Below are positions 10,444-52,856 of a stretch of 64,000 bases of DNA, piece by piece. Position 1 is the first letter of the stretch. The number at the start of each line of letters is the position of its first letter. The stretch lies in NCBI RefSeq assembly GCF_001029265.1, contig NZ_CP011856.1:124001-188000 (forward strand). Direction: 5' to 3'. The position numbers and the translations under genes were made by a program. Source of the stretch: Spiroplasma eriocheiris. Its GTDB lineage: Bacteria; Bacillota_I; Bacilli_A; Mycoplasmatales; Mycoplasmataceae. Below the pieces are notes generated by a model. The model was not told where the DNA came from. It searched no databases and saw only the letters and a list, made by a program, of their open reading frames with translations.

Positions 10444-10536
10444 TTTGCAAAATTTTTAAGATATTTTTAAAAAATTATTAAAATAATCTAGCAATTTATT
10501 ATTAATTTGATATATTTAAAGCATAAAAATAAATTA

Positions 10537-10608
10537 GCAACCTGTATATGTTAGTAATATGGTCTAACGTCTCTACACCTACCCATTGTAATTAGGTACT
10601 ATAGGTTA
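10537..10608 (+). ncRNA. Purine (guanine/hypoxanthine-type) riboswitch aptamer
   Basis: P1 pairs AACCT (10539-10543) with AGGTT (10603-10607). Inside are P2 (TGTTAG/CTAACG) with loop TAATATGGT, the J2/3 core GTCTCTAC (10569-10576), P3 ACCTA/TTAGGT and J3/1 ACTAT. A C in J3/1 at the ligand-pairing position predicts guanine or hypoxanthine rather than adenine. U in the J2/3 position argues against the deoxyguanosine variant known in Mesoplasma. It precedes a purine permease gene, which fits. Confidence 0.92.
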
Positions 10609-10667
10609 ATGTTTTTCCTTTTAAGCATTAACTTTTTAAATTTCACAGGTTAATGTTTTTTTATTTT
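10603..10667 (+). promoter_or_regulatory. Riboswitch expression platform: alternative antiterminator/terminator
   Basis: The segment GCATTAAC (10625-10632) can pair with either of two identical 9-mers AGGTTAATG, at 10603-10611 and at 10647-10655. The upstream copy overlaps the 3' arm of P1. The downstream copy is followed by a seven-T run (10656-10662). With ligand, P1 captures the upstream copy and the downstream terminator forms. Without ligand, the upstream copy acts as antiterminator. This is read from complementarity only, but is consistent with repression by purines. Confidence 0.8.
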
Positions 10668-10691: not shown

Positions 10692-12125
10692 ATGTTTATC
10701 ACACGAAAGATTAGTCATTTTTTTCAATTTGATACTTTTCAAACAACATTTCGCAAAGAAATTATTGGTGGAGTTTCAACATTTTTAGCAATGTTATATA
10801 TTTTATCTGTCCAACCGCAAATGTTGTCTTCTGCCCCGGATGTTAATCATCTTAATGATGCTAGTTATAACATGTCATTCGGGGGAATTTTTATTTCAAC
10901 CGCAATTGCTGCTTTTGTGGCAACCTTTATTATGGGATTATCAGCAAATACCCCAGTGGGATTAGCGCCCGGAATGGGATTAAATGCTATTTTTACTTTT
11001 AATGTCGCTAAAAATGGTATTGGTTATCAAGGAGCTTTGATTGCTGTTATGATTTCATCATTGATTTTTTGTGTTATCTCTTCAACTAAACTACGAACTT
11101 TAATTATTGGGGCAATTCCACATTCAATTAAGTTGGCGATTGGTTCTGGAATTGGCTTTTTTATTGCTTACCTAGGTTTGCATAATATTGGTTTAGTTGG
11201 TGATAATGCTGTTAGTAAGGGTGGTGTTATTTATAACGGGGGCATCCCAGTTGCTGAATTAGGAAATCTAAAAACAAATTGACCCGTTATTTTAATGGGA
11301 TTAGGTGTTTTAATTTTAATCTTTATTTTACATTTTAAAAAAATTCCGGGAGCGATTGCGATTGCCATTATTGTTGGGTTAGGTGTTTCCCTAATAGTGG
11401 GAAATGTTGTTAATAATGATTTTATTAAAGCAAACTTTTCGCACTGAACATGGTGAAGTTACCATGATTTTGATGGCTTTAGTAATAATATTAAATCGAC
11501 TTTTACTGCTTTTGGTAATAGTAAAATTTGAACTTCCCCTGTATTATATGTTTCAATTTTTGTCTTTCTATTTGTTGAGTTTTTTGATTCAACCGGAACA
11601 TTATATTCTGTCACAAAGCAAATTTCTGATCAAAGTGGTATCAAGTATGAATTACGACCCCGCTCATTAATTGCTGATTCTGTAGGGGCGATTGTGGGAG
11701 GAGTCTTAGGAACTTCTCCTGTTACAACTTATGTGGAATCCACAACCGGAGTTTCCCAAGGAGCGCGGACAGGATTTTCATCATTAGTAATTGGAACATT
11801 ATTTTTAATTTCAATTGTATTGTTTCCAATTTTCCGGCTAATTACACCGGCCATTGCGGGAGCAGCCACAATTTTTGTGGGAACTCTGATGATTGTTCAA
11901 ATTAAAGATATTGAATGATTACAACCAGAGTTAGGAATTGGGGCATTCTTTACAATTATTATGATGATTGTAACGTTCTCAATTACTAACGGAATTGCCG
12001 TTGGGTTTATTAGTTATACAATTGTTGGTTTAATTAACAAAAAATACCGGGATATTCATATTGTTACCTATATTCTTGACATTCTCTTTATTGGCTATTT
12101 TATTGCTTATGCATTTGTCCAGTAA
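10692..12125 (+). CDS. NCS2/AzgA-PbuG family purine (guanine/hypoxanthine) permease
   Basis: The 477-residue membrane protein has the family landmarks GVSTFLAMLYILSVQP, NTPVGLAPGMGLNAIF, EFFDSTGTL and GTSPVTTYVESTTGVSQGARTG. The frame crosses several TGA (Trp) codons, for example at 11280 and 11445-11455. It should take up guanine/hypoxanthine by proton symport, needed because Mollicutes do not make purines de novo. A GAAGGAG ribosome site lies 12 nt upstream. Regulation by the purine riboswitch in front of it is the natural reading. Specificity rests on family and riboswitch type. Confidence 0.93.
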
Positions 12126-42093: not shown

Positions 42094-42191
42094 GAGTTTA
42101 TTTTTTTAATTTAAAAATGAAAAATTTTGGTTTATTTATGATATAGTTTAAGTATGAAAGATGTCGATCTTTCAAAAATTAAATAAAATAA

Positions 42192-42333
42192 ATATGGTTT
42201 TTAATTAGGGAATTGTGTTAGAAGCACAAGCTGTACCAGCAACTGTAAAACTGACGAACACTGTAATAACCACTGAGAAAATTTCTTGGGAAGGGCAGTA
42301 AGTAGGCTGAAGTAAAGCCAGTAGACCTACCAT
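42192..42333 (+). ncRNA. Cobalamin (AdoCbl) riboswitch
   Basis: The sequence follows the B12 aptamer in order: P1 start ATGGT (42193-42197), GGGAATTGTG (42208-42217), the conserved CAGCAACTGTAA (42237-42248), CCACTG (42270-42275), TGGGAAGG (42287-42294), AGTAGG...GAAG, and the closing box GCCAGTAGACCTACC (42317-42331) with ACCAT pairing to P1. It lies 190 nt before nrdD. Downstream are hairpins GATTACTT/AAGTAATC (42347-42370) and TTTTTGTA/TACAAAAA (42386-42405), neither with a clear T run, so control may be translational. Confidence 0.93.
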
Positions 42334-42522
42334 GTTTTTGAACTTTGATTACTTCTGGAATAAAGTAATCCTGTAATTTATTTAATTTTTGTATTTTTAC
42401 AAAAATGAAAAATAATAAATTATTGAATTTTATTAACAAAGACAACAAAGATAACTAAATATTATTTTTGTTTATTTAAAGTACTTAAATAATAATTAAA
42501 ACAGAAACGGGGAAAAGCGGGA

Positions 42523-44745
42523 ATGAAATTAAATGACAAAAAGTTTTTATACAACAAAGAAACTGACGGGGGAACTAATTCAACAATAAGTAGTATTATT
42601 AGTAATTCGTTTGCTATTTTTACTAAAGAAAATCCTTTAAAATCATATGATATTGATGCCTTAAAAGAAGAAATAATGAAAATTGTTAATGTTGAAAAAA
42701 ATGATTCAACTTATGAAAATGCTAATATGTCAGCAGATACACCAGCTGGTCAAATGATGAATATGGCTGCAACAACTGCCAAAGAATATGCTTTACGCTT
42801 TTTATTAAGTAAGGAATATCGTGATGCTCATCAAAATGGGGATATTCATATTCATGATTTAGACTATTATCCATCAAAAACAACGACATGTGTGCAGTAT
42901 GATTTAAAAGATATTTTTGCTAATGGTTTTTGAACAAAGAATGGAATGGTTCGCGAACCACAAACTATTCAGTCTTATGCCACACTAGCAGCAATCGTTT
43001 TTCAATCACACCAAAATGAACAACATGGTGGTCAAGCAATTCCAGCTTTTGATTATTTTTTAGCGCCGGGTGTTTTGAAATCATTTCGCAAAAATTTAGT
43101 CAAACAATTAGAATTTATTTTAAAATTAAATAATTTAAAAAGCCAAACAAATTGACAAGCACTAATTCAAACAAAAATTAACACTATTGATTTGCAACTT
43201 AATAAAGAAGCACAACTTGAAATTAGTAAATTATTAAATTTAAATATAAACCAAGTTAAAATTGCTTTTGAGGAGGCATATCTTACAACAGAAAAAGAAA
43301 CTTTCCAAGCGATGGAAGGGTTTATTCATAATTTAAATACAATGCATTCGCGAGGAGGAAACCAAGTTGTTTTTTCATCAATAAATTATGGAACTGATAC
43401 TTCTCCCGAAGGAAGAATGGTGATGCGCCAAATATTATTAGCAACTCAAAAAGGACTTGGAAAAAACGAAACCCCAATTTTTCCTATTCAGATCTTTAAA
43501 GTTAAAGCAGGAATTTCTTACTCGGAAGAAGATTTTAATTTAGCAATTAATAATTGAAAACAAGCTGAAAAGGGGTTACTAAATTATAAAACTAAAAACT
43601 TTGATTTATTGATTCTTGCTTGCCAAACAAATTCAACTCGGTTATTTCCTAATTTTGTTTTTTTAGATACACCATTTAATAAGCATGAAAATTGAAATCC
43701 TGCTGATCCAAATAATTATTTAAATGAAGTTGCGACGATGGGTTGTCGGACAAGAACTTTTGAAAATGTTAATGGATATAAAACACCAGTTGGCCGTGGT
43801 AATATTTCTTTTACAACTATGAACTTACCGCGTTTAGCCATTGAAGCGGTAAAAGAAGTTAAAGAAGAAAATTTATCATATGATGATTTTTTAAAAAAAG
43901 TAAGTGCCTTATTTTTAGAAAAAGTAAGAACAATGAGTATTTTAATTGCTAAACAGTTAAAAGAACGTTTTGATTATCAAAAAACAGCATTATTAAAACA
44001 ATTTCCTTTTATGGTAAAAAATAATGTATGAAAACATCATAAGGACATTTCAAAAGATGAATATGTCGGAAATATGATTAACCAGGGTAGTTTAACAATT
44101 GGCTTTATTGGAGGGCATAATGCCATGAAAATGATCTTTGGAAAAGGCCACGGTGAATCAGATGCAGCATATGATTTATTATACCAAGCAGTATTAACAA
44201 TGAATGAGATTGCTAATCAATATAAACAAAAATATAATTTGAACTATTCAGTTATTGCCACTCCAGCCGAAGGATTATCGGGGCGTTTTACTAGAATGGA
44301 TGTTAAAAAATATGGAGTTATCCCGGGTGTTAATGACAGTAATTATTATGTTAATTCATTCCATGTTGATGTTAAACAAGATATTAGTATTTTTGAAAAA
44401 ATAAAAAAAGAAGCACCATTCCATGCAATCACATTAGGTGGACATATTAGTTATGTTGAATTGGATGGCGCGATGAAATATAACATTCCTGTTATTTTAA
44501 AAATAGTTAAATGTATGTTTGATAATAATATTGGTTATGGATCAATTAATCACCCAGTTGATGTTTGCTTAGAATGTCAATTTTCAGGGATTATTCCTCA
44601 CGCATGTGATAAATGTCAAAGCAATAATATTCGTCGGATTCGTCGGATTACTGGTTATTTAACTGGCGATTTAAATAGTTGAAATTCAGCAAAAAGATCA
44701 GAAGAACATGACCGGGTAAAACATGGAATTAACGAAGATAAATAA
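42523..44745 (+). CDS. nrdD: Anaerobic (class III) ribonucleoside-triphosphate reductase
   Basis: The 740-residue glycyl-radical enzyme reduces NTPs to dNTPs without oxygen. Visible: [17 protein letters not shown] (Cys123), [19 protein letters not shown], the C-terminal Zn motif CLEC...CDKC, and the radical loop RRITGYLTG (Gly711). A short N-terminal part stands in for the ATP-cone. TGA is Trp several times, so the gene is adapted to code 4. The ribosome site (CGGGGAAAAGCGGG) is weak, fitting leader-based control by the cobalamin riboswitch. It overlaps nrdG. Mollicutes normally use aerobic NrdEF, so this is an accessory system. Confidence 0.95.
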
Positions 44746-45238
44746 CTTTAACATTAAAGTTTTAAAAATTTACCCGGAAACAACTAGTGACGGTCTTGGG
44801 TTACGTTATAGTATTTATTTAGCGGGTTGTCGGCATGCCTGTTTTGGTTGTCATAATGTTAGAAGTTGAAATCCTAATAATGGCAAACTTCTAGATGATA
44901 AATATCTTGCTGAAATTATTGACCAAATTAATGCGAATCCGTTATTGGATGGTGTGACGTTATCAGGTGGTGATCCATTCTATGATCCATTATTTTTAAA
45001 ACAACTGTTAGAATATTTGAAAAAATATACTAACAAAAATATTTGATGTTATACAGGTTATACATATGAACAAATTATAAACAAACCAGAGTTAAATGCG
45101 TGTTTAAAATATATTGATGTCTTAATTGATGGGCGTTTCGTTTTGGAATTAAGAGATGTCTCACTTCCTTTTAAAGGTAGCAGTAATCAACGAACAATTT
45201 ATTTAAAAAATGGTAAACTTGATTTTATTGATAATTAG
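44723..45238 (+). CDS. nrdG: Anaerobic ribonucleotide reductase activase (radical SAM)
   Basis: The 171-residue radical-SAM protein generates the glycyl radical on NrdD. The iron-sulfur motif CRHACFGC (Cys36, Cys40, Cys43; CxxxCxxC) and the SAM-binding SGGDPF are present. The start overlaps nrdD by 23 nt. TGA Trp codons (for example RSWNPN) hide the frame under the standard code. It needs SAM (metK in this window) and a reductant. Length and motifs are normal. Confidence 0.93.
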
Positions 45239-50450: not shown

Positions 50451-52259
50451 ATGAAAAGAAGTGAAGCACCAGCCCAGTATAAATGAGATTTTACAAATTT
50501 ATACCCCACAATTGATGATTGAAAAAAAGATTTAAAAATTATTGTTGAAAAGTTAAAAGAAATTATAGCATTTAAAGGAAAATTAAATAATAAAAACATT
50601 TTTAAAAAATATCTACAGTTAGATGATGAAATTGATTTAATTGCTAGCAAATTAGGGCAATATTTACATATGGGTGATATTGATACAACTAATTTAGTTT
50701 ATCAGGAATTATCAGGAATCTTTGCTAATACTATTAATGAACTTTCAAGTCAATTAGCTTTTATTTCTCCCGAATTAAAAGCAATTGGTGAACAAACTAT
50801 TATGGGATGAATTAAGGCAGATTCTGATTTACAAAAATATGAATATGGATATCGTAAATTCTTCCGTGAAGCGCAGCATATATTATCTGAACGGGACGAA
50901 GAAATTTTATCATTAGTATCACGTAGTCGTGGGGCAGCTTATGATATTTATGATTTATTAGCATATGCTGACAAAAAACCAGCTTATGTAAATTATCAAG
51001 GGAAAGAACAAGAATTAACTCAAGCTTTATATAGTGAAATTACTGAAGAGACTGACCCACTGAACGAACAAAAATTAAGAGCAGAAACAGCAAAATTATT
51101 TGTGCAACATTTAACGGATAAAAAACATTCCTTTGCGAGAGTTTATGAAGCAATTTTACAAGGAAGTGTCGAATCAGTAAAGTTAAGAGGCTATAAAAAT
51201 ACTTTACAAGCAGCATTATCAAGTGATGATGTTACCGAAGATATTTATGAAAGTTTAATTAAGTTTGGTCGACAAACAAGTCATTTAAATGTTCGCTATA
51301 ATGAAATTTTGAAAAAATATTTTAAATTTAATAAATATTATGCATCAGACAGCCGCATAAAATTAGTAAAAAATGTACCTAGTGTTAATAAAAAATATTC
51401 AGTTGAAGAAGCAAAAAACATTATTCGTGAGTCATTAAAAATGTTAGGGCCAGAATATTTGAGCCAATTAGAGATTGCGTGAAGTGATTATCGGATTGAT
51501 TATTTTGAGGATACTAATAAAAGAGCCGGTGCATATTCATCAGGAGGTAATGGTGTTGAGCCAATTATTTTGATGAACTGAGATAATACAATCTCATCGG
51601 TTAATACATTAGCACACGAAGCTGGTCACTCGGTACATACCTTACTAGCAGATGCAAATAATCCGCGCCCATTATCAAACTATCCAATTATTTTAGCGGA
51701 AGTAGCTTCAACTGTTAATGAACACTTATTATTTGATTATTTATATAAAAATGCGCAAAGTGATGATGAAAAAATTTATTTATTGCAAAATCGCATTGAA
51801 GAAATTACGGGGACTTTCTTCCGACAAATTCAATTTGCTGATTTTGAATGAACTGCCCATAAAATGGTCGAAAATAATGAGCCGCTAGATGCTGATAAGT
51901 TAGCAGATTTATTTGAAAAAATTAGTAATGATTTTGGAAGTTCAGTCTTTGATAAGTATGAAGAAAATTCAAAACCGTATGGGTGAACAAGAATCTTGCA
52001 TTTCTTTAATTCACCATATTATGTTTATAAATATGCAACATGTATTGTTGCCTCATTCAAACTATATAATGATGTTTTAAATAATAATTCTGCGACATTA
52101 ATTAACTTCTTAAAACAAGGGGGTCGCAAGGAACCATTATTAATTTTAAAAGATATTGGAATTGATTATACTGATGAAAAAGTTTACGATGGTTTAATTA
52201 ATAAATTAACTTCCTTAATTGATGACTTAGAAACACTATTAAATAAAAAAGGAAATTAA
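50451..52259 (+). CDS. pepF: Oligoendopeptidase F (M3)
   Basis: The 602-residue zinc endopeptidase has HEAGH (His389, Glu390, His393) and the third ligand Glu in ILAEVASTVNE about 25 residues on. The N-terminal half is helical, with oligopeptidase F features (DFTNLYPTIDDW, LLAYADKKPAYV). It cleaves imported oligopeptides of 7-17 residues in the cytoplasm. A -10 TATAAT lies at 50400-50405 and AAGGAGAAAA precedes the start. Its stop overlaps the convergent cobA-like stop by 4 nt. Confidence 0.95.
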
Positions 52260-52795
52260 AATTCAATGCCTTTTCGGGCAGGGATTTTTTCATAAAAGTA
52301 GTGTTTGATTAATTTAACATTACTTACTAGATCAACATTATCAATTAAGTTTTGGGTAATATGATGCCCGGAAAAAGCCAATTCAATATTTGGCTTTTTT
52401 GTTTTGATAACCGTAATTAATTCTTCTTCAGTTATCAAACCATTAACAATGCATCCTAATAATTCATCCACAATAATTAAATCAACATTATCACTCTGAA
52501 CTAATTTTTGCAAAGTAGCAAACCCAGTGCGCATCTCTTCTTTTAAGATTGCTTTTTCTTGGTCATTCATTTCCCAAAAGAATTTTTGACTAGAAGAATA
52601 AAAATCGTAAATTTCCAAGTGGGGATGATTAATTTGTTCAAAAAATAACATTTCTCCTGATTGACGATTTTTTAAAAATCGTAAATATTTAACATTTCAA
52701 TTATAACCAAGTGCACGAATTGTCATTCCGTTTAAAATAGAAGTTTTTCCTTTACCATCGCCATAATATATATGAGTATAACCTTTTTTTTGCAT
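52256..52795 (-). CDS. ATP:cob(I)alamin adenosyltransferase (CobA/BtuR type)
   Basis: The 179-residue protein has the CobA P-loop GDGKGKT (residues 12-18), RALGYNWNVKYLRFLKN, GEMLFFEQ, the acidic LIIVDELLGCIVNGLITEEEL, SGHHITQNLIDNVDLVSNV, and the family-typical end YEKIPARKGIEF. It transfers adenosyl to cob(I)alamin, making coenzyme B12. AAAGGTGG 9 nt before ATG and a minus-strand TATAAT (52821-52826) give it its own transcript. One TGA is Trp. With the cobalamin riboswitch at 42.2 kb, it shows that the cell handles B12. Confidence 0.92.
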
Positions 52796-52827: not shown

Positions 52828-52856
52828 GAATAAAAAAATAATCCAGGAAGGATTAT
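52828..52856 (-). terminator. Terminator after the YitT-like gene
   Basis: Read on the minus strand, AATAATCC / GGATTATT hairpin followed by seven T, next to the stop codon. Confidence 0.82.

Follow-up and report, generated by a model that had tools for sequence, protein, structure and literature searches.

Spiroplasma eriocheiris very probably uses imported vitamin B12 to make its DNA building blocks

Cobalt and nickel use has been lost in 88.2% of 17 mollicutes surveyed (PMC2667541), and the 2015 genome paper on S. eriocheiris makes no mention of cobalamin or ribonucleotide reductase (PMC4607517). The S. eriocheiris genome (1,365,714 bases) carries a gene for an ATP:corrinoid adenosyltransferase, cobA (also btuR). 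It lies in the stretch of 64,000 nucleotides analysed here (the window), at 52256..52795 on the minus strand. A sequence-only reading of this DNA had proposed a CobA gene here; the open reading frame was confirmed and the strand is newly added. The gene starts with an ATG at 52795, encodes 179 amino acids and can be read through only with genetic code 4, in which its single internal TGA means tryptophan; the plus strand across the same positions contains many stops. Its neighbours are pepF (convergent) on one side and a yitT-family gene upstream on the other, and the site next to pepF is common to most of the genus Spiroplasma. Reading by eye revealed an unscored terminator-like hairpin with a T run between the yitT-family gene and cobA (52830..52856, minus strand); after it come a box resembling TATAAT and a ribosome site, AAGGTGG, so that cobA looks like a separate transcription unit. 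As the sequence-only reading had stated, no other corrinoid gene was recognised nearby, within the annotated part of the window.

Analysis of the predicted protein against PF02572 (CobA_CobO_BtuR) gave 158.5 bits (gathering threshold 25.7) with the whole profile covered (1-172 of 172), and the protein aligned over its full length with the Salmonella CobA structures 1g5r and 4hut. The P-loop and family blocks described earlier were all found: the P-loop GDGKGKTS at residues 12-19, the F-x-W pair (F72 and W74, the equivalents of Salmonella Phe91 and Trp93), the Walker B motif VDE with D110 and E111, and the C-terminal KGIEF. The Phe91/Trp93 pair is special to the corrinoid reaction. Both residues are reported to be critical in the Salmonella enzyme (Moore et al. 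2012). The protein scored below the NCBIfam subfamily and equivalog cut-offs (TIGR00708, 93.3 versus 167.75 bits; NF004637, 111.6 versus 185 bits) and was thus filed under PF02572 as a divergent member. It also carries His144 at the position of Salmonella Arg161, where the CbrT-CobA fusions of genus g4 keep the arginine. These low scores and the histidine are what would be expected had this P-loop NTPase, within the CobA superfamily, switched to another substrate; however, the conserved Phe/Trp pair, the joint occurrence with the class II reductase NrdJ and the fusion to a B12 S-component in relatives (both described below) make this very improbable. We predict that the S. eriocheiris gene product is a genuine B12-activating enzyme.

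The distribution of cobA was compared with that of NrdJ, a class II ribonucleotide reductase that depends on adenosylcobalamin (AdoCbl). NrdJ is present in 8 of the 14 genomes of the genus, all eight of which have an intact cobA. In contrast, none of the six NrdJ-negative genomes has an intact copy; the gene is absent from three and damaged in three, namely in two pieces about 8 kb apart in G006, frame-shifted and truncated in G007, and deprived of its in-frame start by a shortened A-run that could be a sequencing error in G012. The same pattern was seen across the 298 genomes of the order, where 30 of the 31 NrdJ-positive genomes have CobA, compared with 13 of the 267 NrdJ-negative ones (Fisher P = 8e-30, uncorrected for shared ancestry). 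Several of the 13 have a broken cobA or fragments of nrdJ, and outside the genus G032, G035, G041, G064, G069 and G251 keep a cobA that looks whole but have no intact nrdJ; G069 has CobA and no NrdJ. Conversely, G016 encodes an intact NrdJ and no recognised CobA, and may either import AdoCbl ready made or use another adenosyltransferase. In the sister genome G005 cobA is intact, but a frameshift close to the N-terminus divides nrdJ. An nrdJ pseudogene broken into several frames was also observed in the Spiroplasma endosymbiont of Nebria riversi (L264). The sequence-only reading had suggested that cobA homologues in all spiroplasmas, irrespective of riboswitch and B12 enzymes, would point to another role; only 43 of the 298 genomes carry cobA, and with 3 of 14 genus genomes lacking it and three further copies damaged, a universal occurrence in spiroplasmas is ruled out.

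Comparison of cobA between S. eriocheiris and its sister G005 gave a dN/dS of 0.072 at a dS of 0.26, and values of 0.056-0.105 were obtained for close pairs in sub-clades of the genus. cobA is under purifying selection, and these low ratios rule out a chance relic. In the tree, the mollicute cobA sequences formed a single group apart from five outgroups (support 100/99). A related explanation is that the gene is decaying and intact only because B12 use ended too recently. The damaged copies in G006, G007 and G012 and an nrdD pseudogene in sister G005 fit such decay, but the dN/dS values do not, and nrdJ, cbrT, cbrS, nrdDG and nrdFIE are all open frames in S. eriocheiris; we give this explanation very little credence. 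The earlier argument against a relic, that two independent pieces of B12 handling lie within one 64-kb window, was itself weak, although its conclusion stands. The co-occurrence with NrdJ, the decay of cobA where NrdJ is missing, the purifying selection, and the linkage and fusion in relatives are stronger evidence than proximity.

Linkage was examined in other genera. The gene order nrdJ - fused cbrT-cobA - cbrS is shared by G039, G065 and G079, which are three species of another genus. In each, the fusion is a single in-frame open reading frame of 358 amino acids (L274:3717-4793, L275:3702-4778 and L276:3415-4491, respectively) composed of a CbrT-like S-component (about 1-178) and CobA (about 183-358). 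The order is riboswitch-cbrS-cbrT-cobA in G148 and nrdJ-cobA in G195. The fusion and these operons of nrdJ, cbrT, cbrS and cobA are strong evidence for a shared task. Among 80 named loci, nearly all from Bacilli, cobA was not found beside nrdJ.

The sequence-only reading had also placed a B12 riboswitch about 10 kb from cobA. This element is real: a complete cobalamin aptamer (RF00174, model positions 1-189 covered) was identified at 42178..42348 on the plus strand, with 81.6 bits against a gathering threshold of 31.5 and at a distance of 9.9 kb. It lies in the leader of nrdDG. The class III ribonucleoside-triphosphate reductase gene nrdD (42523..44745, plus strand) matched PF13597 with 609 bits and NF005497 with 926 bits, above cut-off, and nrdG (44723..45238, plus strand), encoding the radical-SAM activase of NrdD, matched TIGR02491 with 169.9 bits, above cut-off. 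Class III reductases are oxygen-sensitive and independent of B12. No intrinsic terminator or recognisable expression platform was found in the nrdDG leader by terminator search and inspection. The search of riboswitch leaders revealed a credible hairpin only ahead of cbrS in sister G005, and by eye a hairpin and T run are also present in the cbrS leader of S. eriocheiris (G000). The cobA gene and the riboswitch of the window are not one operon; they are opposite ends of one pathway. Within the genus, nrdDG is intact only in S. eriocheiris (window 42523-45238), and sister G005 has an nrdD(G) pseudogene behind a partial riboswitch (L088). The window also contains a purine riboswitch (RF00167, 53.7 bits, 10522-10621, plus strand) ahead of a xanthine/uracil-type permease gene (10692-12125).

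The remaining components were located elsewhere in the genome. Three B12 riboswitches were identified in the 1.37 Mb: the one ahead of nrdDG, a second that precedes nrdF-nrdI-nrdE (class Ib reductase), and a third that precedes the genes for a small membrane-anchored protein (CbrS), an S-component (CbrT) and a lipoprotein. NrdJ is encoded at G000:385567-388119 and scored well above both of its cut-offs (NF005991, 1321.4 versus 854 bits; TIGR02504, 559.9 versus 399.95 bits). A CbrT profile search of the PDB returned the solved cobalamin transporter 6fnp (E = 2.1e-11) as the sole match up to E = 10. CbrS of S. eriocheiris did not match DUF4430 (PF14478), for which a homologue in L277 scored 17.9 bits, below the gathering threshold of 23.8, and nothing credible came back when the CbrS alignment was run as a profile against the PDB. 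The name CbrS was assigned from genomic place and a profile-profile match (probability 96.7) to a protein encoded beside cbrT-nrdJ in Erysipelothrix, where relatives of CbrS and CbrT lie immediately ahead of nrdJ; the structure model of the Erysipelothrix protein has a pLDDT of 58.6. No B12-binding domain, QueG or PduO-type adenosyltransferase was found in the 14 genus genomes. NrdJ is therefore the sole B12 user recognised in these searches, which covered B12-binding domains and QueG, and CobA is the sole recognised adenosyltransferase, the EutT type also not being found. The lipoprotein family LP345, which has no Pfam match, is found repeatedly next to B12 riboswitches or after nrdFIE (L054:7642-8679, L066:7299-8282, L279:6289-7473) and is a candidate corrinoid-binding lipoprotein.

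Taken together, these data suggest a circuit in which a corrinoid would be imported by an ECF transporter whose S-component, CbrT, is of the B12 type and is partnered by CbrS. CobA would adenosylate it to AdoCbl, an activity and substrate predicted from its family, and NrdJ, again judged by family, would consume AdoCbl in making deoxynucleotides. AdoCbl would also bind the three riboswitches and reduce expression of nrdDG, nrdFIE and the importer. Both the ligand and the off-direction are predictions, and that abundant AdoCbl lowers the B12-independent reductases is proposed by analogy with Streptomyces nrdABS (PMC4991794). We consider it highly probable that CobA is a working adenosyltransferase that supplies NrdJ from imported corrinoid while its product turns down the B12-independent reductases and the importer. 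The sequence-only reading had the cell importing, adenosylating and sensing a corrinoid, which agrees with the CbrS-CbrT operon, CobA and the three riboswitches; its salvage route is supported, but it missed the consumer, NrdJ, and the purpose, as well as the fact that the riboswitch fronts the B12-independent nrdDG.

CobA might instead serve mainly to make the riboswitch ligand, with AdoCbl reporting on corrinoid in the host and catalysis by NrdJ being secondary. Three riboswitches in a 1.37-Mb genome, and their retention in G002 and G003 after the loss of cobA and nrdJ, can be read in this way. The same two genomes also speak against it, as cobA is gone where the riboswitches stay, so that cobA tracks NrdJ and not the riboswitch. 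Moreover, nine genomes with NrdJ have no riboswitch above the cut-off (including all three fusion genomes), and eight of the nine keep cobA. We therefore regard a mainly signalling role as improbable, and supply of NrdJ as the preferred function of CobA.

Riboswitches were also observed ahead of other genes. In relatives, a B12 riboswitch precedes an operon for nucleoside phosphorylase, deoxynucleoside kinase, transketolase and a KDPG-type aldolase (L074, L073, L085, L079, L077, L080 and L086, in G009, G008, G004, G010, G002, G003 and G012, respectively); this salvage operon was identified by domain scan in G009 and by matching gene lengths in the other genomes. Genomes without a recognised ribonucleotide reductase (G002, G003, G006, G007 and G012) keep the salvage-operon switch, either as a remnant or as a response to corrinoid without local adenosylation. 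B12 riboswitches persist in G002 and G003 (L077, L080, L064, L084), from which cobA, nrdJ, cbrT and all recognised reductases are absent. In G050, G070, G113 and G133, which have neither CobA nor NrdJ, RF00174 matches below threshold (22-27 bits) lie some 2 kb upstream of an NrdE match and resemble decayed riboswitches. By their predicted gene content, the riboswitches and the salvage operon fit one theme, the supply of DNA precursors. We see about an even chance that AdoCbl is the master signal of this supply in Spiroplasma and its relatives, through switches on reductases, uptake and salvage, and that in the genus with the CbrT-CobA fusion adenosylation may take place at the membrane during entry.

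If the circuit is correct, many spiroplasmas and their relatives would need host or microbial corrinoid for DNA synthesis, and loss of NrdJ would take cobA along while riboswitches linger, providing a natural series for how a vitamin dependency and an RNA regulon are dismantled. The CbrT-CobA fusion offers a direct handle on the coupling of corrinoid transport to adenosylation. The accessible parts of open-licence papers that name Spiroplasma and B12 gave no description of B12 use in Spiroplasma, and the open-licence literature yielded nothing that joins cobalamin riboswitches with deoxynucleoside metabolism, nor any account of a fusion between an S-component and an adenosyltransferase; such absences are weak evidence of novelty.

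Every component is individually of a known kind. CobA of S. eriocheiris shares with CobA/BtuR of Salmonella enterica (1g5r, 1g64, 4hut) the fold family, P-loop, F-x-W pair, Walker B motif and C-terminal KGIxF/Y; it differs in its divergent sequence and in having His144 where Salmonella has Arg161, no gene for cobalamin biosynthesis was recognised adjoining cobA, and its role would be salvage rather than synthesis. Lactobacillus delbrueckii has an nrdJ-cbrS-cbrT-pduO cluster (Santos et al. 2018, PMC5997447) that similarly combines CbrT uptake, adenosylation and a class II reductase and contains the CbrS-CbrT pair. In contrast to its PduO-type enzyme, S. eriocheiris has a CobA-type adenosyltransferase, its genes are scattered and riboswitches would control pieces of the set; a sister genus of Spiroplasma has fused cbrT with cobA. 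In Streptomyces coelicolor, which also has a class II nrdJ, a B12 riboswitch stands on class Ia nrdABS (Borovok et al. 2006, cited through PMC4991794). Both organisms thus have an AdoCbl riboswitch fronting a B12-independent reductase and NrdJ in the same genome, but in S. eriocheiris the reductases under predicted control are of classes Ib and III and the cell would import its B12, and in Spiroplasma relatives deoxynucleoside salvage also lies behind the switch.
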